Below, piece after piece: positions 1 through 27,319 of a stretch of 40,158 nt of DNA (its first letter is position 1; each line of letters opens with the position of its first letter). Where the stretch lies: contig CAMBUJ010000009.1 in NCBI GenBank assembly GCA_945871005.1, positions 1 to 40,158 of the forward strand, in the 5' to 3' direction. The notes beneath the pieces were generated by a model. It had not been told where the DNA came from. It did not search any database and saw only the letters and a program-made list of their open reading frames with translations. The position numbers and the translations under genes were made by a program. The stretch is from Opitutus sp. GAS368 (lineage in GTDB: Bacteria > Verrucomicrobiota > Verrucomicrobiia > Opitutales > Opitutaceae).

Positions 1-1
1 C

Positions 2-916
2 GTCCTTAGCACCGGAGTGACTGCGCCCGATGAATTGGCCAAACATACGCTCGCGTTGTTAGAAACGCGCTTGAGCACAGTCAGTCGGGTGGCACCTGCA
101 TTTGCGCTGGCGCTTCGTGCCTACCGTGAAGCCCAAGTCAAAGGCGACAATGCGCTGTGCGATGGCCTAATCGCCTGGCTCGGGGGGCAGCCCAATATCG
201 CGGCGGAAATCAAACGGGCCGCCAGTTTGAAGGGTGACGTAGATCACTTCGCTGCCCTCGGATTCACTCAAGGACTTCTGACGGTGCTACGGGACTCCGG
301 CCGCCCTGGCTTGGTGCTGGTGCTTGATGAAGTGGAGACACTCCAACGGGTGAGAAGCGATGTGCGGGAGAAAGCGCTCAATGCGCTGCGCCAATTGATC
401 GACGAAGTAGATGCCGGACGATTCCCCGGACTTTACCTGCTGATCACTGGCACTCCGGCCTTTTTCGATGGAGCACAAGGCATCCAACGCCTGCCTCCGC
501 TGGCGCAACGGCTCCACGTAGACTTTTCGGTCGACGCCCGCTTCGACAATCCCCGAGCGCCGCAACTCCGCCTTCGCGCCTTTGATCAAGCGCTACTCCA
601 GGAGATCGGTCTGCGAGTTCGCTCCATTTACACCCAGAACGCGACTACGGCGGACCGGATCGATCGACTCGCGAATGACGCAGTGCTTTCACGTCTCGCG
701 GACACACTGTGTGGTCAACTGGGTGGTAAAGTAGGCGTGGCCCCACGGCTCTACTTGAAAAAGTTGGTCGCCGAGGTGCTCGACCGCATTGATCAATTCC
801 CCGATTTCGACCCGGCGCGTGACTACCAGTTCACACTCCAAAAACAGGAGATGACCACGACTGAACAAGCTGCGGCCGGGTATTCCTCGGTGGACGATAT
901 TCCCCTGGAGACGTGA
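2..916 (+). CDS. brxD: BREX ATP-binding protein BrxD, 5'-truncated by window edge
   Basis: P-loop ATPase of the BREX phage-defence system; only the C-terminal part is present. The track's GTG at 17 is not the real start, because the frame is open to the window edge and family members carry about 120 further residues including the Walker A loop. Visible are the Walker B strand 'LVLVLDEVETLQRV', the sensor-like 'YLLITGTPAFF' and the characteristic 'GGKVGVAPRLYLKKLV' near the C-terminus, all typical of BrxD. The stop overlaps the start of brxHI by 4 bases (GTGA), so the two are translationally coupled. In known loci brxD and brxHI close type 2 (Pgl-like: pglW, pglX, pglY, pglZ) and type 6 BREX operons; which type this is depends on sequence left of the window. 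Confidence 0.93.
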   Translation, partial: VLSTGVTAPDELAKHTLALLETRLSTVSRVAPAFALALRAYREAQVKGDNALCDGLIAWLGGQPNIAAEIKRAASLKGDVDHFAALGFTQGLLTVLRDSGRPGLVLVLDEVETLQRVRSDVREKALNALRQLIDEVDAGRFPGLYLLITGTPAFFDGAQGIQRLPPLAQRLHVDFSVDARFDNPRAPQLRLRAFDQALLQEIGLRVRSIYTQNATTADRIDRLANDAVLSRLADTLCGQLGGKVGVAPRLYLKKLVAEVLDRIDQFPDFDPARDYQFTLQKQEMTTTEQAAAGYSSVDDIPLET

Positions 917-3000
917 GCCCGTTTGAGCGACTCCATCCCATCGTCCAGCACCATGTGGTAAACACACTTGGATGGAGGGAGCTGCGACCACTCCAAGAGG
1001 AGAGTATCGCCCCGGTCATGGACGGTGCGCACGCGCTTCTGTTGGCACCTACCGCCGGGGGGAAGACGGAGGCCGCCTTTTTGCCGCTGCTTTCTCGTAT
1101 GACCAGCGAAAGCTGGAAGCCGCTTTCGGTTATCTACGTTTGCCCACTTAAGGCGCTGCTCAACAACCTGCACTCCCGCTTGGAGCGCTACTGCGCGTGG
1201 GCCGGGAGAACCTGCGCAGTTTGGCACGGGGACGTCCTTACGGCACAACGCAACCGGGTGTTGAAAGAGCTGCCGGATTGCCTGCTCACCACCCCCGAAT
1301 CGCTCGAAGCGATGCTGATCTCCACCCGCGTGGAGCATCGCAATGTCTTCGCCAATGTGAGGGTCGTGGTTATCGACGAACTGCATGCGTTCGCAGGGGA
1401 CGACCGGGGATGGCACCTGCTCGCCGTGCTGGAGAGGATTACCCGACTGGCGGGTCATGAGATTCAGCGCATTGGGTTATCAGCCACCGTGGGGAATCCG
1501 CAGGGACTGCTCGATTGGATGTCAGGTCACTGCGAAGGCCGCCGTGAACTCGTGGTGATCCGGCCGCCCGCAAATGCCCCCCAGCCAGAAGTGCAGGTGG
1601 ACTTTGTGGGCCGCATCGAAAATGCCGCCCGTGTGATTGCGGCCCTGCACGCGGGTCAAAAACGCCTCGTGTTTTGCGACTCGCGCAACCGCGTGGAGCA
1701 ACTCGCTCTTCACCTGCGGGCGGCCGGGATCGAAACCTATGTCTCCCATAGTTCATTAAGCGCAGATGAGCGAGGAAGGGCGGAGCTAGCCTTTGCCGAG
1801 GGCGGGAGCTGCGTGATTGTCGCTACCAGCACGCTGGAACTTGGCATCGACGTGGGCGACCTCGACCGCGTGATCCAGATAGACTCGCCGTCCACGGTGG
1901 CCTCGTTTCTCCAGCGCATTGGTCGCACGGGACGTAGACCCGGAACCTCACGCAACTGCCTATTCCTGGCACTGACGGAGGAATCGCTGCGCCAGAGTGT
2001 TTCCCTCGTGCGTCTGTGGCAGACGGGCTACGTCGAGCCGGTGCAACCGCCTCCACATCCGGTGCACCTGTTCACGCAGCAACTCATCGCGTTATTGCTT
2101 CAGGAGCGTGCGCTACCGAAGCACGACTGGCGGGAGTGGATCGGACGCCTGCCTCCATTTAAAGAGATCCCCGAGGATTCGTTAAACGCGATCCTGCGGC
2201 ACCTGGTGGCGCAGGGCTACATCCATGAAGATCAGGATATGTGGATGATTGGACCGTTGGCGGAATCGGAGCTAGGACGCCGTCATTTCTCGGACCTGGT
2301 TTCCGTTTTCACGTCGCCGCCGCTGTTCGAGGTCTGGAATGGCCGACAACATGTCGGGAACGTCGAGGAAACCGCGCTCCAGCGTGAGGCCGACCAGCCC
2401 GCTATCATCTCACTCGGCGGACGAGCCTGGAAGGTGACGAATATTGACTGGAAAAAGCGCCGACTCGAAGTGGTGCCCGAACCCGGTGCCGCCAAAACAC
2501 GCTGGCTAGGCACGGCCCGGTCGCTGCGCTACGAGCTATGTCAAATGACCTTAAGCGTGCTGAGTACGGACGAGGACTACGCCTTTTTATCAAAGCGTGC
2601 ACGCACCAGCCTTGAAGCGGCGCGCAACGAATACGCCTGGGTAAGGCTGACGTCCCCATTACTACGGGTTCGTGAGAACAAGGTTATCGAGTGGTGGACG
2701 TTTGCCGGTCGCAGCGTGAACCAGTGGGTTTGCGATGTAGCGAGGGAGCACCTGTCCGTTCACGCCACAGGTGATGATCTGCGAGTGCGCTTCGAAGCCG
2801 GAATGGAGCGGGTTGAGGAGATGATCGCATTGATCCAAAAGCAGTCGGCCGCTACACCCACCGGTGAATCATTCGTCGCCAAGTTCTCAGACCTGCTCCC
2901 GGACAAGGAGCTGGCAGGCTTGATCAAATGCCGAGCGTATCGAGCCAGCGACGTGGGGCAGTTTGTCGATAAGCTCCGGGCAGTTAAGATCGAAAAATAG
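913..3000 (+). CDS. brxHI: BREX helicase BrxHI (Lhr-like DEAD/DEAH box helicase)
   Basis: Superfamily 2 helicase of 695 aa, the expected full length. Walker A is 'APTAGGKTEAA' (about residues 45-55), the DExH box is 'VIDELHAF' (about 154-161), motif III is 'GLSATVGNP', and motifs IV-VI include 'STLELGIDVGDLDRV' and 'QRIGRTGRRPG'. The C-terminal half resembles the winged-helix/Lhr-core extension. It starts at GTG 913, overlapping the brxD stop by 4 bases, with GGAG only two bases upstream. BrxHI is a core member of type 2 and type 6 BREX, which restrict phage without cutting their own modified DNA; its precise mechanistic role is not established. The gene ends 23 bp from a convergent phosphoesterase remnant, so the BREX locus ends here. 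Confidence 0.95.
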   Translation: MSPFERLHPIVQHHVVNTLGWRELRPLQEESIAPVMDGAHALLLAPTAGGKTEAAFLPLLSRMTSESWKPLSVIYVCPLKALLNNLHSRLERYCAWAGRTCAVWHGDVLTAQRNRVLKELPDCLLTTPESLEAMLISTRVEHRNVFANVRVVVIDELHAFAGDDRGWHLLAVLERITRLAGHEIQRIGLSATVGNPQGLLDWMSGHCEGRRELVVIRPPANAPQPEVQVDFVGRIENAARVIAALHAGQKRLVFCDSRNRVEQLALHLRAAGIETYVSHSSLSADERGRAELAFAEGGSCVIVATSTLELGIDVGDLDRVIQIDSPSTVASFLQRIGRTGRRPGTSRNCLFLALTEESLRQSVSLVRLWQTGYVEPVQPPPHPVHLFTQQLIALLLQERALPKHDWREWIGRLPPFKEIPEDSLNAILRHLVAQGYIHEDQDMWMIGPLAESELGRRHFSDLVSVFTSPPLFEVWNGRQHVGNVEETALQREADQPAIISLGGRAWKVTNIDWKKRRLEVVPEPGAAKTRWLGTARSLRYELCQMTLSVLSTDEDYAFLSKRARTSLEAARNEYAWVRLTSPLLRVRENKVIEWWTFAGRSVNQWVCDVAREHLSVHATGDDLRVRFEAGMERVEEMIALIQKQSAATPTGESFVAKFSDLLPDKELAGLIKCRAYRASDVGQFVDKLRAVKIEK

Positions 3001-3009
3001 AGGGGTGAC

Positions 3010-3152
3010 CTGCATACAGCCGTCAAGCAGGGCGGATTTTATGAGTAACAGGCAACCTGACGTTGTCCCTCAAAAGGCCGCTTCGACGGGTTGCGATGGC
3101 GGAATCAAAATCGATGAGGACATAAGTGGGTACAGTTGCGAGGGGCTTACCT
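3010..3152. repeat. Direct repeat copy A (phosphoesterase 3'-end fragment)
   Basis: A 143-bp segment that is repeated in the same orientation at 4634-4775. Shared blocks include 'CAAGCAGGGCGGATTTTATG' and 'GTGGGTACAGT', ending in 'GGGGCTTACCT'. Similarity stops abruptly just after this last block in both copies. The copies bracket a 1.5-kb module (ORF fragment, outer-membrane protein, HTH gene). Confidence 0.9.
3023..3152 (-). pseudogene. Remnant of calcineurin-like phosphoesterase C-terminus (copy A)
   Basis: Reading the minus strand gives an open 42-codon tail beginning about 'PLATVPTYVLIDFDSA' and ending '...THKIRPA' at a TGA at 3023-3025. It matches the C-terminus of the intact phosphoesterase at 5921-6631 ('PLATVPKHVLIDLKAG'). 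The catalytic part (DxH, GDxxD, GNHD, GHVH) is absent; upstream of the homology the frame meets a stop. It is therefore a 3' fragment, not a gene. At protein level about 30 of 40 residues match copy B, so both come from a related but distinct phosphoesterase, not from the intact gene next door. Confidence 0.8.
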
Positions 3153-3531
3153 CGAACGCGACCTACTCACCAAAGGCGATCCAGTACAGGCGCGGGCCGA
3201 TTTGACCGCTGCCTTTGTCGCCGCCAACCCAACCACGAAAACCTACTACCAAATCGCGGCGGAAACCTATGCGGCTAAATTACTCGCTGATGCAGGTAAT
3301 ACGGGTGGGACGGTTAATCCCCCAGTTACAGATACTGGAACCACGCCAACGGGCACGATCGGGTCTGCAACCAATCCTTATACATCCATGGCGGCGCTCG
3401 TGCAAAATGCTGGGACCGCATCCTCCACTACTCTAGGCCAAACGGCCTATGTTGGGACCACAAAGTATAAAGTAACTCGACACAGTGGCGGACAAGGAAC
3501 GGCGTCCTACTCATGGGACCCTATCCCATAA
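3136..3531 (+). CDS. Hypothetical protein, probable 3' fragment of a larger gene
   Basis: The 131-aa ORF begins inside repeat A (TTG at 3136; frame open only from 3118), so its first residues are an artefact of the repeat junction. From about residue 6 it reads like ordinary protein: a helical segment ('QARADLTAAFVAANPTT', 'YYQIAAETYAAKLLADAG'), then a Gly/Thr/Pro/Ser-rich low-complexity linker, then a compact C-terminus with 'TTKYKVTRHSGGQG' ending 'WDPIP'. No family is recognised. The most economical reading is the surviving 3' end of a longer gene whose 5' part was lost when repeat A was joined at 3152. A strong terminator follows directly, supporting that this is a genuine gene end. Confidence 0.45.
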   Translation: MRGAYLERDLLTKGDPVQARADLTAAFVAANPTTKTYYQIAAETYAAKLLADAGNTGGTVNPPVTDTGTTPTGTIGSATNPYTSMAALVQNAGTASSTTLGQTAYVGTTKYKVTRHSGGQGTASYSWDPIP

Positions 3532-3538
3532 ATCAATA

Positions 3539-3568
3539 AAAAGGCCCACCGTTAAAGGTGGGCCTTTT
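3539..3568. terminator. Bidirectional rho-independent terminator
   Basis: Perfect 8-bp GC-rich stem GGCCCACC / GGTGGGCC (3543-3550 and 3557-3564) with a 6-base loop, A-tract on the left and TTTT on the right. It lies between two convergent reading frames (the ORF ending at 3531 and the beta-barrel gene ending at 3590) and can serve both. Confidence 0.9.
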
Positions 3569-3589
3569 GCTTTCGCAGTAACCGAAACC

Positions 3590-4234
3590 TTACCAAGAGT
3601 AACCAACGCTCAAGGCAAAACTAGGACGAGTAGCCCCATCAAAGGCAAAGGTGTCAGTACCGCTATGGGTGACATAGGTATTACTCTCGACCTTAAGCAA
3701 CTGAGCGGAAGCTGAAACATCCCATCCCTTACCTAGATCAGCCTTAACCCCAACGGTGCCACCGAAAGCCAATTTCCACTTTGAGGCACTGTCTGTGCCA
3801 TACTGAGCAGGATTACCACCACCACCCAAATCATTAACAGTACTGGTGTAAGTCTCGCGAATGAACCCGACAGTAGGGCCTGCAAACACCGTATATTTCG
3901 CGGCCTTATCCAAGCTGTAATTAAAGCGATAATTCAGCAATACAGGGATCTGTTTGGACTCAGCAAGAAAATCGGAAATACCAACCTCTACATTTTTCTT
4001 ACCCTCGAACTTGGTGTAACCCGTGGAAATACTGACCTCGTGAACCTTGTCGATGAGGACGCCAGCGGTGAGACCAGGCCCAACCTCGTAACCCTTGGGT
4101 GCGAAAGTCTCCTTGTAGCCGGTATTGGTGTAGGCGATTTCAGCGCGCAGGATAGGAGTCACGCGGGATTGAGCCTGAGCAGAGGCGATGCCGGTGAGGG
4201 CAGTTACGGTCGCGATGGCGATTAGGTATCTCAT
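3590..4234 (-). CDS. Outer-membrane beta-barrel protein (porin-like, OmpA/OMP_b-brl type)
   Basis: 214 aa with a clear Sec signal peptide ('MRYLIAIATVTALTGIASA', cleavage around residues 19-21). The mature part shows alternating hydrophobic/polar strands and turns rich in Gly, Asn and Asp ('YTVFAGPTVGFI', 'WKLAFGGTVGVKADLG'). It ends in an aromatic residue ('LSVGYSW'), the usual BAM-recognised barrel terminus. The length suits an 8-stranded barrel. A ligand cannot be named. It sits in the module bounded by the two phosphoesterase-tail repeats and is divergent from a small HTH gene about 107 bp away. It resembles general outer-membrane cargo more than a known defence component. Confidence 0.8.
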   Translation of the reverse strand: MRYLIAIATVTALTGIASAQAQSRVTPILRAEIAYTNTGYKETFAPKGYEVGPGLTAGVLIDKVHEVSISTGYTKFEGKKNVEVGISDFLAESKQIPVLLNYRFNYSLDKAAKYTVFAGPTVGFIRETYTSTVNDLGGGGNPAQYGTDSASKWKLAFGGTVGVKADLGKGWDVSASAQLLKVESNTYVTHSGTDTFAFDGATRPSFALSVGYSW

Positions 4235-4341
4235 AGAGGGATTAGGTTGGTTAGCTGGATTTATCCTGATTCGAAACGTGTAAGTGCTACGAAAGTGTGC
4301 CCGTGGGGCACCTTTTAGCAGGGCAATCTGCTTAACTCACT

Positions 4342-4608
4342 GTGCTCTGCGAGCACATTTTGGAACGGGAACAGCCTCATTCTCCCCGCAATTTAATCGG
4401 CGCGTCACTTCGAACGATTCGCCAGAGAGCGCGTCCACGTATTTCTCAGGAGGACCTTTGCGGTAGAGTCGCACGCTACGGAGTTATTTTGACCCGCACG
4501 CAAATCGCAAAAATTGAGGCCGTTAAACGCCCGGTTTTCGACTACGAGCTGAACGCATTTGCAAAAGCCCTAAACGTGGAGATCGAGGAGTTGATTCACG
4601 CCAGCTGA
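4342..4608 (+). CDS. Small XRE-like helix-turn-helix protein
   Basis: 88 aa from GTG 4342; a downstream start is possible because the conserved part begins at 'IGASLRTIRQRARPRISQ'. The HTH reads 'ISQEDLCGRVARYGVILTRTQIAKIEAVKRP', with the recognition helix around 'LTRTQIAKIE', followed by 'LNAFAKALNVEIEELI', the usual C-terminal helix of short XRE regulators. It probably binds DNA as a dimer. It is divergent from the beta-barrel gene and lies between the two direct repeats. Its target is unknown; local autoregulation of the divergent spacer (4235-4341) is the simple guess. Confidence 0.7.
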   Translation: MLCEHILEREQPHSPRNLIGASLRTIRQRARPRISQEDLCGRVARYGVILTRTQIAKIEAVKRPVFDYELNAFAKALNVEIEELIHAS

Positions 4609-4633
4609 GCGGAAGCCTCCAGTAATTGGTGGC

Positions 4634-4775
4634 CTGCTACAGCATTCAAGCAGGGCGGATTTTATGAGTACCGGTTAACTTGACGCGATCCACCAAATGA
4701 CCGCTTCGCCGGGTTGCGGTGGCGGTATCAAAATCAATTAGGACATGAGTGGGTACAGTCGCATGGGGCTTACCT
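4634..4775. repeat. Direct repeat copy B (phosphoesterase 3'-end fragment)
   Basis: Second copy of the ~142-bp repeat seen at 3010-3152, same orientation, clearly related but diverged by scattered substitutions and small indels. Both copies end at the same 'GGGGCTTACCT' block. Confidence 0.9.
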
Positions 4776-4786
4776 GCGCATATTGA
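4646..4786 (-). pseudogene. Remnant of calcineurin-like phosphoesterase C-terminus (copy B)
   Basis: On the minus strand the frame reads '...CSICAGKPHATVPTHVLI', continues through 'ATRRSGHLVDRVKL' and stops at a TGA at 4646-4648. This aligns with the tail of the intact phosphoesterase 5921-6631 ('CLNAAGDNPLATVPKHVLID', 'SGHMVDRVTL'). Similarity reaches slightly further upstream than in copy A, then an in-frame stop appears and no catalytic motif remains. It begins only 18 bp beyond the stop of the ATPase gene (4805), as if a third phosphoesterase once followed the ATPase in the same operon. Confidence 0.8.
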
Positions 4787-4804
4787 GCATTGGGCGGACT
4801 AGAG

Positions 4805-5902
4805 TTACTGCGTGTGTCGATGGTATTCGACCCAGCGACGGAAATAGGGGTTATCAAAAACAACGCCTCGTTCGCCTCGAACCAAGATTTGGCTTTTTAC
4901 CAAGTGTTTGATCGCGGTCGTGGCTGTCGACGCCGCGTTGATCCCAAACTTACGGAGGGCTGCCGCAGATGCAGGCCGAAGCCCGCCTGCGATGGCTCGT
5001 AACATGGCCCGTTGGGTTGCCAGTAGCGGACGCCATTGGTGCGTAAACGCCGAATCCAACTCCACGAGGGCGATCGCATCAAGCGCCCTGGCAACCACCT
5101 GGTCTGGCTCATGAATGCCGGCTCGCGTGAGATCGAAAACCGTCTTGGCGAGGCGGATTACATCTCCTTCACACGGTCCGGCGATTTTCACAATATCTTC
5201 GGCGTTGGAAAATTCCGTGACTCCACCCAACTTCGCCCGAGCTTCAATCCACTGGACTACAACATGGACTGGGCGTGGGCCGACCTCCACGAATTGGAGT
5301 TGCTTGAAAAAGGCGGCCGTCGGCGCAGTCATCACTTCCACGATGTGCTGCGGGCCGACGAAGATGTAGTTGAGGTTACGGTGCCCCTGCATGGCTCCGC
5401 GTAACCTCCATTCGATACGATCACCTCCTAGGGCCAGGACTTCTTGAAATTCATCCAAGCAGATTGTCCACACCTCGCCCCTTTCCGCTGCTTGATCGTT
5501 GAGGAGGCTGAGCGAGCCTTCCAAGGTCTGGCCGCCTTCATCCTGCCTTAACGCGCTTCCGATGAATACCCTACCGGCAGCCACCCCCGCATTAGGGAAG
5601 TAGTTAGCCGCCATCGCCACGGTACGCGACAGGTGCTCATCGGTCACCTCAGGGGCAGAGGCGAGAAGTTTTTTAGCGACCTCATTGAGATCAGCAGCCT
5701 TAGAAATATCACAGTACAGAAATGCCTGTTGAGCTTTCCGTCCGGCGAATTGAACAAGCGAGGTTTTCCCCATGCGCCGTCGGCCGAAAACGAGCAATCG
5801 GCGACTCGATTCGCCCATTAACTGGATAATCTTAGCCGCAAGGGCCTCGTGGCCGTCTAAGCACGTATCATCCGCAGTATAAGTGAATGGATTCGCGGTC
5901 AT
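4805..5902 (-). CDS. P-loop ATPase of the ATPase_2 / archaeal-type family
   Basis: 365 aa. Walker A 'GRRRMGKTSL' lies at residues 40-49 with the extra arginines typical of ATPase_2 (STAND-related) proteins; Walker B is 'ICLDEFQEVL' around 147-156. The sensor region is 'NYIFVGPQH' and the C-terminal third looks like a winged helix ('QRAMLRAIAGG' ... 'LVKSQILVRGERGVVFDNPYFRRWV'), as in the DUF234-type tail. Members of this family often act as regulatory or toxin-activating NTPases in mobile and defence regions; the specific function here is unknown. The start at 5902 is 18 bp after the stop of phosphoesterase 1, same strand, so they are probably co-transcribed. It is the last intact gene of the minus-strand cluster. 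Confidence 0.85.
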   Translation of the reverse strand: MTANPFTYTADDTCLDGHEALAAKIIQLMGESSRRLLVFGRRRMGKTSLVQFAGRKAQQAFLYCDISKAADLNEVAKKLLASAPEVTDEHLSRTVAMAANYFPNAGVAAGRVFIGSALRQDEGGQTLEGSLSLLNDQAAERGEVWTICLDEFQEVLALGGDRIEWRLRGAMQGHRNLNYIFVGPQHIVEVMTAPTAAFFKQLQFVEVGPRPVHVVVQWIEARAKLGGVTEFSNAEDIVKIAGPCEGDVIRLAKTVFDLTRAGIHEPDQVVARALDAIALVELDSAFTHQWRPLLATQRAMLRAIAGGLRPASAAALRKFGINAASTATTAIKHLVKSQILVRGERGVVFDNPYFRRWVEYHRHTQ

Positions 5903-5920
5903 CGGTCTGGCGCTATAATT

Positions 5921-6631
5921 TCAGCCGACTTGATTACGCAAAGTAACCCTATCCACCATATGGCCGCTTTTCAGAATAGCCTCGCCAGCCTTTAAATCAA
6001 TCAGGACGTGCTTCGGCACGGTTGCCAGCGGATTATCTCCGGCGGCATTGAGACAGATCGCCCGTCCACACTTCGCCTGCCATTTCGTCGCCGTATGGAC
6101 GTGCCCACTGAGCACCAGTTTAGCCCGAGCACCCCAGGCAGGCGAAAGTGCGGCAAATAAGTCATCACTACCAAAGTCGATCGGTTGCCCACCGTCGTCG
6201 GAGCGCCCCAAGCCACACTCGCTCGGTGGCGCGTGGTGCAGCCAGACATCGGCCTCAACCACGTTAGGTCGCAAAAAGTCCACGGCTTCACTGCCCCACG
6301 GTAAACAGGCGATCGTCCAGTCGCCGAAAACGCCAACTCCGCCATCGACCGTCACGCCTGGCCGTGCGAGCGCCCGCAGCCAGTCGGCATTGTCATCAAG
6401 GACGATGTCATGATTGCCGCTACACAAGAAAAGGGGGAAATCGATGGCGCGCACCCAGGTGCCGATCCAATCGATTTGCCGCTTCAATGCACTGCTGGCT
6501 TGCTGGGCATCGGCGTCGACCAAATCACCCGAAATGGCCACGGCGCAGCCCGTTGCTCTGGCCTGCTTGGCGACCCAATAAAACCAGGTTTTATTACCGT
6601 GCAGATCGGAGAGGTGGAGTAGTTGGCTCAT
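5921..6631 (-). CDS. Calcineurin-like metallophosphoesterase 1
   Basis: 236 aa with the complete two-metal phosphoesterase set in order: 'DLH' (D9, H11), 'GDLVD' (35-39), 'GNHD' (72-75), 'HHAPP' (132-136) and 'GHVH' (176-179). The GNHD/GHVH pattern places it with nuclease, cyclic-nucleotide and phospholipid-type phosphoesterases, not with PPP protein phosphatases, which have GNHE. There is no signal peptide, so it is cytoplasmic. It is a distant paralogue of the gene at 7480-8190 (same length, same motif spacing, both with a Lys-Trp shortly after GHVH). The tail 'ATVPKHVLID' is the part duplicated as degenerate copies A and B. The substrate cannot be deduced. Confidence 0.9.
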   Translation of the reverse strand: MSQLLHLSDLHGNKTWFYWVAKQARATGCAVAISGDLVDADAQQASSALKRQIDWIGTWVRAIDFPLFLCSGNHDIVLDDNADWLRALARPGVTVDGGVGVFGDWTIACLPWGSEAVDFLRPNVVEADVWLHHAPPSECGLGRSDDGGQPIDFGSDDLFAALSPAWGARAKLVLSGHVHTATKWQAKCGRAICLNAAGDNPLATVPKHVLIDLKAGEAILKSGHMVDRVTLRNQVG

Positions 6632-6857
6632 TCAGAGTAAGTCGGAAAATCAGTGCTGTGAAGAGTAAGGAGGGGGAACAAGTACGGGTGCTTTCGTTGG
6701 GGTGGCGGACCAACAGAGATAGGTGGTTTCGCGCTCTAAAGCCCCCTGGCGCTTGGTCGGTCAGGGGCGAAGGTGGTTTTGCCGAGTTGCTAAGTTGAGT
6801 GGGGGCAGGTGCCTCATCCATGGTTACGGTTTTGGTTATGGGCCGGGCATCGCTCAT
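6594..6857 (-). CDS. Possible small ORF or gene remnant between phosphatase and phosphoesterase 1
   Basis: The 233-bp gap between the Cys phosphatase and phosphoesterase 1 holds one frame starting ATG at 6857, seven bases after the phosphatase stop. It begins with a plausible polar N-terminus ('MSDARPITKTVTMDEAPAP'). The second half looks non-coding (Arg/Ser/Pro/Leu-rich) and overlaps the start of phosphoesterase 1 by 38 bases in another frame. It could be the 5' stub of a deleted gene or simply chance. I see nothing else in this gap. Confidence 0.2.
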   Translation of the reverse strand: MSDARPITKTVTMDEAPAPTQLSNSAKPPSPLTDQAPGGFRARNHLSLLVRHPNESTRTCSPSLLFTALIFRLTLNEPTTPPLRSAR

Positions 6858-6864
6858 AATGGCC

Positions 6865-7407
6865 TCATTGCCCCTGCTGCCAGGCCTCGATGAATAGCCT
6901 CTGTTGGTCGTTCTCCGGGGTGGGGCGGAACGCCTCAATTTTGTCGCCGATGAGCGCGTGCATCTGGGCCACGGCCTGCGTCGGCGTGGCCAAACCATGA
7001 CGCACCAGCCAGCAGCAGACTACAGTACCGGTTCGGCCCCGACCGCCCCAACAGTGAACGAAGCCCACGCCGCCACGTTGCAGGGTGGCGTCGATGTCAT
7101 CGAGGATGGACTGCACTACGTCTGGAGTGGTGGTGGAGCCATCCACGATCGAATATCTGCGTCCCTCCACGCTCCGCCCCATCGCGGCGGCAGTTAATTT
7201 AGCATGCGACAGGTAATCGTAAAACGGAACCCCGTCGTGGTTGGTTTCCGTGGTGTACATCAGGTTAATGATGTCGGTGACTCCGACATCGAGCAGCGCC
7301 TGGATTTTCGCTTCGGAGGATTCACTGGTTCTGCCGGCCGGGTAGGCACCAGCCAAAAGCTTGCCGGGCACGACCCAGTAACTGCGTTGGTAAGGAGCGG
7401 GTTTCAT
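6865..7407 (-). CDS. Dual-specificity/tyrosine phosphatase family protein
   Basis: 180 aa. The Cys-phosphatase loop is 'HCWGGRGRTG' with nucleophile C119 and R125 (C-x5-R). A candidate general acid is D89 in 'IVDGSTT'. The fold begins 'YWVVPGKLLAGAYPAG', the usual N-terminal strand of bacterial dual-specificity phosphatases that restrain phosphate on protein or small substrates. It sits 72 bp downstream of phosphoesterase 2 in the same direction, with a 233-bp gap before phosphoesterase 1. Such phosphatases are sometimes appended to defence or nucleotide-signalling loci; the substrate here is unknown. The AT-rich spacer ahead of the start contains TATAAT-like sequence almost touching the ATG, so an internal promoter is possible but not convincing. 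Confidence 0.88.
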   Translation of the reverse strand: MKPAPYQRSYWVVPGKLLAGAYPAGRTSESSEAKIQALLDVGVTDIINLMYTTETNHDGVPFYDYLSHAKLTAAAMGRSVEGRRYSIVDGSTTTPDVVQSILDDIDATLQRGGVGFVHCWGGRGRTGTVVCCWLVRHGLATPTQAVAQMHALIGDKIEAFRPTPENDQQRLFIEAWQQGQ

Positions 7408-7479
7408 GATTATATTATGCTTTATGGTGCGATTGATGGAAAATCATTTGGGCGCTACGTGACTTCATACTACCGTGCT

Positions 7480-8190
7480 TTAATCCTTGTGGTTAATTGG
7501 CTTGAAGTACGCGGATTCGGTTCGGTTTTCGTCGGGGCAATGCCATTCAGCTCGGCCCGTTTGGGTATCAATAATGATGTGCTGAGGAATCTTAGCGGTC
7601 AGGTCGCAACCTGGGTTGAGGCAGAGACTATCGCCGATATGTGCATGCCACTTCTTGGGTTCATGCACATGGCCACAGAGCACCAGTCGTGGCTTGTGCG
7701 CCCAGATCGCATCGCTGACTTCGGGGTCACCGTCGTCACGCAGCGAGTTCGGGGAAACAGCCAATACGGTTCCTGCGGGCGGGGCGTGGACCACCACGAT
7801 GTCTGTGGCCGAGGGCCAAGTCCAAGGCACTGCTGCTCTGCCGCACCACGGCACCACCCCTATTGACAGTGGTCCCGACCAAAGTTGTTCGTCCACAATC
7901 AGGCCGGGGCGACTCAGTTCCCGTAGCCAAGCGCCACTGCGCGTTTGTGTACCCGTGCGGAGATCGGGCAAAACATCGTGGTTGCCCGAACACACAAGAA
8001 GCGGGCGTTTGGGCGAGCAGGGAAACGCCGCCAACTGTGCGCTCCACCGCTCGACCTGGGCAGGGGTTTTATCGAACTGATTAAGCATGTCACCCGCCAG
8101 GGCAATTGCATCATAATTAGCCGCTTGTGAGGAAAGCCAAGTGAACCAATCCAAGCGAAAGTGGAAATCCGCGACGTGGAGGATTTTCAT
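7480..8190 (-). CDS. Calcineurin-like metallophosphoesterase 2
   Basis: 236 aa, intact metal-binding set: 'ADFH' (D8, H10), 'GDML' (33-36), 'GNHD' (69-72), 'HAPP' (135-138) and 'GHVH' (173-176). It is a diverged paralogue of phosphoesterase 1, sharing the arrangement around GNHD, the 'WLRxLxRPG' segment after it and the 'KPRLVLCGHVHEPKKW' region. Like its partner it has no signal peptide. In the second motif the usual GDxxD/GDxxN is 'GDMLNQ', still an acceptable metal ligand set. It starts 11 bp after the 77-aa gene and is almost certainly co-transcribed with it. Two non-identical phosphoesterases in one cluster suggest separate substrates or a heteromer. Confidence 0.9.
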   Translation of the reverse strand: MKILHVADFHFRLDWFTWLSSQAANYDAIALAGDMLNQFDKTPAQVERWSAQLAAFPCSPKRPLLVCSGNHDVLPDLRTGTQTRSGAWLRELSRPGLIVDEQLWSGPLSIGVVPWCGRAAVPWTWPSATDIVVVHAPPAGTVLAVSPNSLRDDGDPEVSDAIWAHKPRLVLCGHVHEPKKWHAHIGDSLCLNPGCDLTAKIPQHIIIDTQTGRAEWHCPDENRTESAYFKPINHKD

Positions 8191-8201
8191 GGAGGCGTTA
8201 C

Positions 8202-8435
8202 TTATTGGTCGAGCAGCACCTGCAGTTTTAGGCGAAGGGGTTCACGTTCTGCACGGCCGTCGATCGACGAATAGGCGAGGTATTCGAGGAGGATTGATTT
8301 TAACTCCGCTGCTCGCCTGCCGGCGCTCATGAGAATCGCATCGCGCTCGGCCCCGTCTCCAGCGGCACGTAAGATCGCTTCAATTTCGGCCCGCACCGCA
8401 GGTGGTTGCTGGGCAAATAGTTCATTTTTGATCAT
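8202..8435 (-). CDS. Small hypothetical protein heading the phosphoesterase cluster
   Basis: 77 aa, starting 'MIKNELFAQQPPAVRAEIEA', mostly helical and strongly charged, with no recognisable catalytic motif, signal or membrane segment. It is the first gene downstream of the promoter at 8486-8515 and ends 11 bp before phosphoesterase 2, so it belongs to the same transcript. The size and composition would suit a small regulatory, adaptor or antitoxin-like partner, but that is only inference. No family is recognised. Confidence 0.65.
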   Translation of the reverse strand: MIKNELFAQQPPAVRAEIEAILRAAGDGAERDAILMSAGRRAAELKSILLEYLAYSSIDGRAEREPLRLKLQVLLDQ

Positions 8436-8485
8436 GGGTGTGTACTCTAGGTATTTTGGGGTTCGGCACTTCGTTCGTTCTTTTC

Positions 8486-8515
8486 AGTATAGCACGCGAT
8501 TGGTCGCATTTTTAA
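8486..8515 (-). promoter_or_regulatory. Sigma70-like promoter for the phosphoesterase cluster
   Basis: On the minus strand TTAAAA (8510-8515), an 18-bp spacer and TATACT (8486-8491), about 50 bp upstream of the ATG of the 77-aa gene. The -10 is one base from consensus; the -35 is weak. It is the only good promoter seen ahead of the cluster. Confidence 0.5.
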
Positions 8516-9164
8516 GATTTCTGACGGTTCGCGAATTTGGCGCTGGGGCCTTAGCTCCATCTCTAGTTTTGGGTGGTTCGGTAAGCGCTGCGAGACGCTC
8601 AAATAATGCCTAGCAGCGTTGGTAGAAGTTATGAGAACCGGCCTGGCTGGCTCGAAACCATTGCCCATTTCCCCCCGTCTCTAGCTACCTGCCATTCCCC
8701 CGATGGCATGAGGGCAATCCGGCCATTACGTAAAATGGCGCTACGTTACTTAACGTAATGGGTGGGTGGGCGGATCCAAGTGGACTGCCTCAGTTCTAAC
8801 TTTCTACCCACTTCTAGCTACGTCTATCTGAAATCGAGTATAACTGAGTATAAGCTGCTATAATTTCACAAGCCACTGTTTAGTAATAGTTAATATCCAC
8901 TTGTGGATCCATCGAGCAGATATCGAGGCACACTCGACTGGGCCTGTTCAGGGCGTTTTTCCGTATCAAGGAGATGCGGACATGGACGACCGCCCGCCGA
9001 TTGGTGGATTGAGAATTCTGCCGCACCTGCGCGCCGTGGAGGCTAATGGCAGCCAGAATAAGACGATAGTTGCCACCCCTTACGGTATTTCGCCGGTTTA
9101 TCCATGGCCGCCAGCTAGGTATCTGCTATGGATGGAGTGCGTTCAGTCGGGGGTCGAACTACGA
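8516..9164. other. Gene-poor spacer with an inverted repeat
   Basis: About 650 bp with no convincing gene. It contains an inverted repeat CATTACGT (8724-8731) / ACGTAATG (8753-8760) with a nested GTTACTTAAC-type palindrome between the arms. It also holds a tandem GAGTATAA / GAGTATAA-like stretch followed by TATAAT around 8838-8865 that could be a plus-strand promoter without an obvious target. The plus ORF 8901-9521 is judged a shadow of the gene at 9165-9557. Confidence 0.5.
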
Positions 9165-9557
9165 CTAGAGCCTACCCTTAAATCGACCGGCAGAAGAAAT
9201 CGATTCGATACTCTCACCCTCAGGGAAATCAAATATTACCAATGGTTTAAGCCTCATGTCGGTCTTCTGATGGATTTCCGCCATCGAAATCTTAACCTGC
9301 CACTTATAAAAATTATCCATGAGTTCGTTTTCCGAAACATTAACCGATCCATCGGAGAGGACTTGATTTTTCAAGGTACGGTGAAGAACCACTCCAAGCA
9401 TAAAAATCCCCCACAAGTAAGAGGAGGGACTGCCATCGTCTTTGTTGTGCGTCCAATGGCGAATAAACCGTTCAGGCAAATCATGTGTCGTCACATTTGG
9501 ATTCGTTTTGATCCACTCTAGGCTTTCTTTAAAAAATAACGGTTCAGGATTTTTCAT
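9165..9557 (-). CDS. Hypothetical protein, 130 aa
   Basis: Moderately AT-rich ORF with ordinary protein composition: 'MKNPEPLFFKESLEWIKTNP', a hydrophobic segment 'YLWGIFMLGVVLHRTLKN', then 'ELMDNFYKWQVKISMAEIHQK'. The hydrophobic stretch is too short and too interrupted to call a transmembrane helix. No family is recognised. It is preferred over the overlapping plus-strand ORF because of its natural amino-acid pattern and because its start faces a divergent regulator. The spacer to the XRE gene holds a perfect palindrome, so the regulator may control this gene. Confidence 0.55.
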   Translation of the reverse strand: MKNPEPLFFKESLEWIKTNPNVTTHDLPERFIRHWTHNKDDGSPSSYLWGIFMLGVVLHRTLKNQVLSDGSVNVSENELMDNFYKWQVKISMAEIHQKTDMRLKPLVIFDFPEGESIESISSAGRFKGRL

Positions 9558-9602
9558 GCCGAAAATGTACGACTGAAAACGCTAAAAAGCACAAGGTAAA
9601 AA

Positions 9603-9616
9603 CCATCTATAGATGG
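9603..9616. promoter_or_regulatory. Perfect 14-bp palindrome, probable XRE operator
   Basis: CCATCTATAGATGG is identical to its own reverse complement. It lies 37 bp before the likely ATG of the XRE gene and 46 bp from the divergent 130-aa gene, the classic position of an autoregulatory operator. Confidence 0.55.
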
Positions 9617-9652
9617 TGTCGAGTCTGGGTGATTGTCGGTAGAATGCAAGGG

Positions 9653-9883
9653 ATGCCCAGTGAATTCAGCCTGTTACCCAAACAATTGGGACGTACCGTT
9701 CGACAACTCCGTGTTGAGGCAGGGCTGAGCCAGCAGGTATTGGCTGAAAAAGCCAATTTGGCACTCAATTTCGTGGGTGAAATCGAGCGAGGAGAGAAAA
9801 ATGCCTCGCTGGAAACCACGCTACGTTTGGCCCGCGCACTAGGACTTTCAGGGGCCGAGCTATTGCAGCGTGTTGGGGTGTGA
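9653..9883 (+). CDS. XRE-family transcriptional regulator
   Basis: 76 aa from ATG 9653 (ATG 9644 and GTG 9629 are alternatives; the conserved domain begins just after residue 9). The HTH_3 domain is complete: 'LGRTVRQLRVEAGLSQQVLA' then 'LALNFVGEIERGEKNASL' with the recognition helix around 'ALNFVGEIERG', then 'TLRLARALGLSGAELL'. Length and layout match single-domain regulators of mobile elements, restriction systems and toxin-antitoxin loci. The palindrome just upstream is a likely binding site. No methylase or nuclease gene is adjacent, so it may control the divergent 130-aa gene or be what is left of a larger system. Confidence 0.85.
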   Translation: MPSEFSLLPKQLGRTVRQLRVEAGLSQQVLAEKANLALNFVGEIERGEKNASLETTLRLARALGLSGAELLQRVGV

Positions 9884-10682
9884 CGTCATTTGGCCGCTAA
9901 GAGCGGTCAAGCCTTCTCCGCCCGCGCTGCAATGAATCGAGGCGTTTCTTTCAGACGGCCAGCCGATGAAGACCTGTAAAAACAGGAATTTGGAAAACCC
10001 AAGTCTGCGCCATGATCACCTTCGAACCGCCGTTACTCAAATTACGCTTTCGAATTCAACCGATCGATTTTTCCTAGGGCACGATCAATCGACACTTCAT
10101 CCGAATTCTTCGGAAATTCGCCAGCCGCAGGCCGATGGACCATTTAAAACGAGTGGTCAGTGTGGCATGAAATTAATGGATCAGCTTTTACCGCTAAGGT
10201 AACCGGATTGATTCCTGCAAAATCGACACTGTAACCGCAGAGGAAATACATTAGCCGGCTCTTTTTCGGAAAGGGAAATGCGGGGGACCGAAGCATTGCC
10301 CACGGTATTTTCCGCTAGGGGCGGCGAATTGCTTCCATTTCTCCGTTATAGAAAAGAATATGCTTCCTGCCGTATTTTTCTCATGCGCCTTACCTATGGA
10401 GCGACTTTTCGAGATCGGGAGTGGAATTGATTCCGCAGAGCGTGGGAAATAGGTACAAACGACAAACCTGCGGTTAGGTTGCCAGTTGACGTGGCAACCA
10501 GCACCGAGGCCAAGTCTGGCCCCGTTTCGTTTCCAGGGCATGCCCGTTGCGTTCCTGCTGCGCCTGGCCGCCCGCCTGCGTGATGACCCGGTGCGCTATT
10601 ACCCGACCTCGACGAAGTTCCCCGCGCTTACCTCGACTGCCAGTGCCCCTTCCTGCTCGAGACTCTCGTCGAGGCCGGCGCC
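9884..10682. other. Non-coding junction between accessory island and housekeeping region
   Basis: About 800 bp without a convincing gene. The left two thirds are AT-richer and look decayed; near 10480 the composition switches to the high GC of the following genes. Features seen: a weak hairpin GGCCGCT/AGCGGTC right after the XRE gene (9892-9908, no T-tract); an inverted repeat at 10477-10499; and a plus-strand frame after a TGA at 10584 reading 'PDLDEVPRAYLDCQCPFLLE' (from 10602) that looks protein-like but is not identified. No tRNA or integrase was found. Confidence 0.5.
10477..10499. repeat. Inverted repeat at the composition boundary
   Basis: GGTTGCCA (10477-10484), a 7-base spacer, then TGGCAACC (10492-10499); perfect 8-bp arms exactly where base composition changes. 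It could be a recombination or attachment remnant or a hairpin; no partner copy is visible in the window. Confidence 0.45.
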
Positions 10683-26324: not shown

Positions 26325-26449
26325 GGGCGAAGGCGCCGACGCTCACCGAAAACCACCGCAAGGCAAAGCCCGGAAAGCAAAAAACGCGGCTTAATCCCCC
26401 AGTCCCGATGATTGCTTTTCCCACTTGGCCCGCATGGGCTTTTCATCCC

Positions 26450-27319
26450 ATGAGAATCCTGCCCCTGCTGGTTGCCTCCCTTACGCTAGCTCTGAGCCCG
26501 TTGCTCAATGCCGGCGAAATCCTCGTCAAAACCGGCGAGTCGATCGCCTTCCTCGGTGACTCAATCACCGCCCAAGGCGCCGCCAGTTCCGGCGGCTACG
26601 TCCGCCTTGTTGCCAGCGGGCTCGCCGCCCAAGGCATCGAGGTCACCGTGGTCCCCGCTGGCATCAGTGGCCATAAATCCGACCAGATGCTCGCGCGCCT
26701 CAACAACGACGTGCTCAGCAAAAAGCCCACCTGGATGACGCTCAGCTGCGGCGTGAACGACGTCTGGCACGGCGACAAGGGCGTGCCGTTGGAGGCTTAC
26801 AAAAAGAACATCACGGAAATCCTCGATCGCTGCCAGCAGGCCGGGGTGAAGGTGGTCGTGCTCACCGCCACCCAGATCAAGCTGCCGCTGACCAGCCCAG
26901 AGAACGCCAAGCTGGCCGGCTACAACGCCTTCCTCCGTAACACCGCAAAGACCCGCAACCTGCCGCTGGCCGATCTCAACGCGGCGATGGCGGCCGAACA
27001 GGCAGCATTGGAAAAAGCCGGCATCAAGCGGGTGTTAACCGGCGATGGCGTCCACATGAATCTCTACGGCAATCTGATGATGGCGAAGGGCGTGCTGAGC
27101 GCCTTCGGCCTCGATGACCAGCAACTCGCCGCAGCCAACGCCAAATGGAGCGAACTGCCTGACCTCTATCGGGGTGCGGCGAAGATCGAGCTTTCCCTCG
27201 CGGAGTTCACCGCGTTGGAAGCTTCCGCTGCGAGACAGAAGAAAACGGTCGATGCGTTTGTCAGCGACCTCGCCACGGCCGCAGTCAAGGCGTCGCTGAA
27301 GCCTGCCCCGGCGAAGTAA
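26450..27319 (+). CDS. Secreted SGNH/GDSL-family hydrolase
   Basis: ATG 26450 gives 289 aa with a signal peptide ('MRILPLLVASLTLALSPLLN', cleavage near 'LNA-GE'). The track's earlier start adds 14 residues without merit. Block I is 'FLGDSIT' with Ser about residue 38; block II 'GISGHKSDQM'; block III 'LSCGVNDVWHG'; block V 'DGVHMNLYG' with the Asp-His pair. This is a full catalytic set for an esterase/lipase acting on acylated or acetylated carbohydrates outside the cytoplasm. The C-terminal ~60 residues form a charged helical extension. A strong terminator follows. Confidence 0.92.
   Translation: MRILPLLVASLTLALSPLLNAGEILVKTGESIAFLGDSITAQGAASSGGYVRLVASGLAAQGIEVTVVPAGISGHKSDQMLARLNNDVLSKKPTWMTLSCGVNDVWHGDKGVPLEAYKKNITEILDRCQQAGVKVVVLTATQIKLPLTSPENAKLAGYNAFLRNTAKTRNLPLADLNAAMAAEQAALEKAGIKRVLTGDGVHMNLYGNLMMAKGVLSAFGLDDQQLAAANAKWSELPDLYRGAAKIELSLAEFTALEASAARQKKTVDAFVSDLATAAVKASLKPAPAK

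Follow-up and report, generated by a model that had tools for sequence, protein, structure and literature searches.

The brxD-brxHI gene pair at the left edge of the window (the whole stretch of DNA analysed, 40,158 bp, which is the entire contig C9) is very probably the 3' end of a type 2 BREX (Pgl) operon of the order pglW-pglX-pglY-pglZ-brxD-brxHI, which was horizontally acquired and has been cut by the assembly. The first gene, brxD, lies on the forward strand at 2-916 and is open at the contig start, with its 3' two thirds (304 codons) in view; it encodes an ORC/Cdc6-like AAA+ ATPase of BREX. The second, brxHI (913-3000, forward strand), is complete, starts with GTG and encodes a 695-aa SF2 Ski2/Lhr-like DNA helicase of type 2 BREX. 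In the ORF list, frames 2-916 and 913-3000 share the four bases 913-916 (GTGA), in agreement with the original prediction, which had named both genes and their four-base overlap. BrxD matches its PADLOC profile at 5.8e-129 over model positions 146-439 of 440, the NCBIfam equivalog NF033438 with 419 bits against a cut-off of 350, despite the truncation, and Pfam PF10923 at 6.9e-80. BrxHI matches its PADLOC profile at 3.4e-282 over model positions 2-690 of 698 (689 of 698 positions). These matches are far beyond chance and settle the identity of both genes.

The helicase motifs of BrxHI (PTAGGKTE, DELH, SAT and QRxGRTGR) are intact and are invariant among four type 2 BrxHI proteins, save DEIH for DELH in one of them. 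The brxD fragment retains Walker B (VLVLDEVE); the contig edge cuts off approximately 143 N-terminal residues, among them Walker A, which reads GDYGCGKT in relatives. Hence, the earlier description of both genes as full strength by motif stands for BrxHI, with all of its helicase motifs, and only by half for BrxD. The solved structures nearest to the window BrxHI are 5v9x and 7lhl, which were deposited as ATP-dependent DNA helicases and which we take to be Lhr. Lhr-type DNA helicases share the SF2 core of BrxHI, which according to the literature also has an Lhr-like C-terminal domain, but they are longer and not linked to BREX.

The original prediction had placed the pair in either type 2 or type 6, and phylogenetic analysis of the helicase resolves this choice to type 2. 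BrxHI was compared with 80 relatives from genome contigs, three type 6 plasmid loci (L107, L110 and L111) and Shango loci. In the maximum-likelihood tree, the window falls inside a clade with all type 2 sequences (SH-aLRT 100), where it adjoins two Verrucomicrobia loci, and the type 6 and Shango sequences each form a clade of their own. Type 2 PglY and PglZ genes are present upstream in 65 of the 68 related genome loci that have at least 5 kb of upstream sequence, and type 2 core genes also stand ahead of the brxD-brxHI pair in plasmid loci (n = 4). The full operon pglW-pglX-pglY-pglZ-brxD-brxHI is found in G064, a complete genome from this family, where every gene tested matches a BREX-2 or BREX profile (pglW, PADLOC E = 0, 1368 bits; pglX, BREX-2, 1540 bits; pglZ, BREX-2, 778 bits) and brxHI, directly after brxD, is 52% identical to its counterpart in the window. 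Together, the tree, the conserved PglY and PglZ genes and this full operon type the pair as BREX-2. The type 2 loci of G064, Candidatus Thiodictyon syntrophicum pTs417 and Polaromonas naphthalenivorans pPNAP01 contain the same dyad in the same order and of the same protein lineages, and the four-base overlap is common to the window and all three. Compared with a complete type 2 locus, the window has the 3' end only, with brxD cut by the contig edge and the core out of view.

That the window holds the 3' end of a type 6 locus (brxE-A-B-C-pglX-pglZ-brxD-brxHI) is very improbable. Type 6 loci, such as those of Pseudanabaena pPg_02 and Aulosira plasmid3, have a core of BrxA/B/C instead of PglW/PglY but end in the same two genes, and a Planctomycete locus (L042) has a type 6 core beside type 2-like brxHI and brxD genes. 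However, the identity of the window BrxHI to type 6 proteins is 36-38%, versus 44-54% to type 2 proteins, and the tree test rejects a clade uniting the window with the type 6 BrxHI of L107, L110 and L111 (p-AU 5.5e-5, with a log-likelihood worse by 96.6). Moreover, in a phylum sample of 388 genomes that includes the source genome, no BREX-6 PglX exceeds the cut-off, and the assembly holds no BrxC, although the contig stops short of the position at which both genes would be expected. A Shango system, which consists of three genes (a TerB-domain (TerB-N) protein, a BrxD-like ATPase and a helicase) and whose ATPase and helicase are distant relatives of the window pair, is scarcely credible as a source of these genes. 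The BREX profiles outscore the SngB and SngC profiles by about 400 and 525 bits, even though the latter also match the window pair (1.5e-8 and 5.6e-123) and Shango-like plasmid loci carry the same gene pair; Shango helicases form a separate clade with a support of 100 and reach at most approximately 30% identity to the window BrxHI. Both the type 6 and the Shango readings are thus rejected by the BrxHI tree, in which the window helicase lies outside both clades. On L042, a Pirellula contig, the type 6 core (BrxB, BrxC and PglX) and the type 2-like brxHI occupy opposite strands, and a brxD and a PglZ piece lie further along; either two types of BREX are adjacent there or they are mixed.

The prediction that the BREX locus runs off the left edge of the window is well supported by a type 2 pair that is cut by the contig start. 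Contig C9 starts inside brxD, and the place where an upstream core would be expected lies outside the contig. Searches of the assembly for PglZ (family and protein), PglY, type 2 PglX, PglW, BrxC and BREX-6 PglX found none of these; the PglW search returned a single weak kinase-like match (C108, 6.4e-7), and the best PglX match, on contig C3, is a type IIG-like methyltransferase and not PglX. The first 150 bases of C9 have no match on any other contig of the assembly. It should be noted that the source assembly (3.48 Mb) comprises 305 contigs, is 91.7% complete, and that islands easily remain unbinned, so the absence of the core is weak evidence against a BREX-2 operon. Because 65 of the 68 relatives keep PglY and PglZ, and because binning readily loses an island of atypical composition, the most likely case is that the core exists and is absent from the assembly only (unassembled or unbinned), while its loss from the genome is possible. 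The latter would make the locus a decayed BREX-2 remnant, in which brxD-brxHI survive, pglW/X/Y/Z have been deleted and no BREX defence operates. Such decay is documented among the relatives and would agree with the lack of any core gene in the assembly. In L037, an internal-deletion remnant, the pglW N-terminus adjoins brxD from residue 154. L015 (G043 contig C4, 11552-19009), from the same family, has a complete pglW and, after it, a frame of 965 codons that joins pglX (residues 300-744) in frame to C-terminal brxHI (271-678), so that an internal deletion has fused the methylase with the helicase. L109 retains fragments of pglW and brxHI, and no further BREX gene was found at L093. Nevertheless, decay is unlikely for the window, given that nearly all related loci keep PglY and PglZ, that the window brxHI is full length, and that the brxD fragment can be aligned to intact BrxD proteins from its codon 1, the first of the contig, and shows no junction. 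This homology from the first codon indicates that the cut is due to the assembly and not to a gene deletion. The assembly-cut BREX-2 operon therefore remains the preferred reading.

The BREX end lies within a low-GC, horizontally acquired island with accessory genes (1-10600), which is recognized by GC content, GC3 and synteny. GC content rises from 0.51-0.61 in the first 10 kb to 0.62-0.68 beyond, and the GC3 of genes is 0.53-0.72 in the island versus 0.80-0.90 in the chromosomal part. The right boundary falls between about 10,480 and 10,680, beside selO, and from 10,679 rightwards the genes are chromosomal (selO, LpxR, PdxH, ABC-F, CinA and UvrC). In blastn comparisons, synteny with two genus mates, which extends for 9 kb in G210 (78-87%) and for about 4 kb in G164, begins in both cases at the end of selO, at 10,679. 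Since synteny starts only there, the BREX end sits in an island that has no counterpart at this place in G210 and G164. This synteny, along with the chromosomal genes to the right, also shows that contig C9 is correctly binned. The island of accessory genes in the original prediction is thus real, with approximately 10.6 kb of atypical composition. That the BREX locus explains why accessory genes follow, as the prediction proposed, is an inference, given that defence genes are common in such islands. Contig C114 of G210 also stops at this point behind selO, which hints that the boundary is a recurrently variable or repeat-rich site. A second small frame for a helix-turn-helix regulator (9610-9885, forward strand) lies close to the island's right end. 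With regard to distribution, a search of the 12 other genus members gave no BrxHI match at 1e-60, and among the 250 genomes of the family search only two others have a type 2 relative, a rarity that fits horizontal acquisition. A scan of viral contigs recovered no BrxHI relatives.

Behind brxHI, a 138-nt direct repeat (83% identical; 3015-3152 and 4638-4775) flanks a 1.5-kb segment that contains genes for an outer-membrane beta-barrel protein (3590-4234, reverse strand) and a small helix-turn-helix protein (4342-4608, forward strand). The repeat occurs in none of the other loci fetched, and a structured RNA was ruled out (fold z 0.11, no Rfam match). It is followed by an operon on the reverse strand (4805-8443) for a P-loop ATPase, a calcineurin-type phosphoesterase, a dual-specificity phosphatase (6865-7407), a second phosphoesterase and a small protein of approximately 77 aa. 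Among plasmids, there is one weak match to the ATPase, and the phosphatase is present in only 5 records; the second phosphoesterase matches the PADLOC candidate family PDC-S10 (1.6e-12) and had no match in the plasmid and phage searches. Related dual-specificity phosphatases are found downstream of type 2 BREX genes in two unrelated loci, L050 of Pirellula (4003-5625, 36%) and L018 of Sphaerotilus (26410-26925, 32%). These suggest a distinctly doubtful scenario in which the operon is an accessory module of type 2 BREX, its phosphatase acting against the PglW kinase arm. A general link between phosphatase and BREX is weakened by cyanobacterial plasmids that carry the phosphatase with no BREX beside it.

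In a survey of 1309 type 2 taxa, the dyad of BrxD and BrxHI is tightly linked, the two being kept in 88% and 91% of the taxa, and PglW is kept in about 80% (PMC12839542). The same survey describes BrxD as an ORC/Cdc6-type AAA+ ATPase and BrxHI as a Ski2-like SF2 helicase that has a winged helix and a beta-barrel as well as an Lhr-like C-terminal domain; the dyad is proposed to load the helicase onto target DNA and to drive it there, taking the part that BrxL plays in type 1 (PMC12839542). According to the literature, PglX would methylate host DNA at a short motif, and PglW, PglY and PglZ would sense and restrict unmodified phage DNA. Following the role proposed in PMC12839542, BrxD probably loads or activates BrxHI, which would unwind target DNA in place of BrxL, a protein missing from type 2.

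The locus is an ordinary member of the well-described anti-phage BREX type 2 and presents nothing new in kind. It demonstrates that, even with the core out of sight beyond a contig edge, brxD-brxHI alone can be typed from sequence (type 2 versus type 6 versus Shango). It also marks a defence island, the left part of which the assembly lacks. With the 12 other sampled genomes having no such system, it adds a rare, horizontally acquired BREX-2 to the genus.
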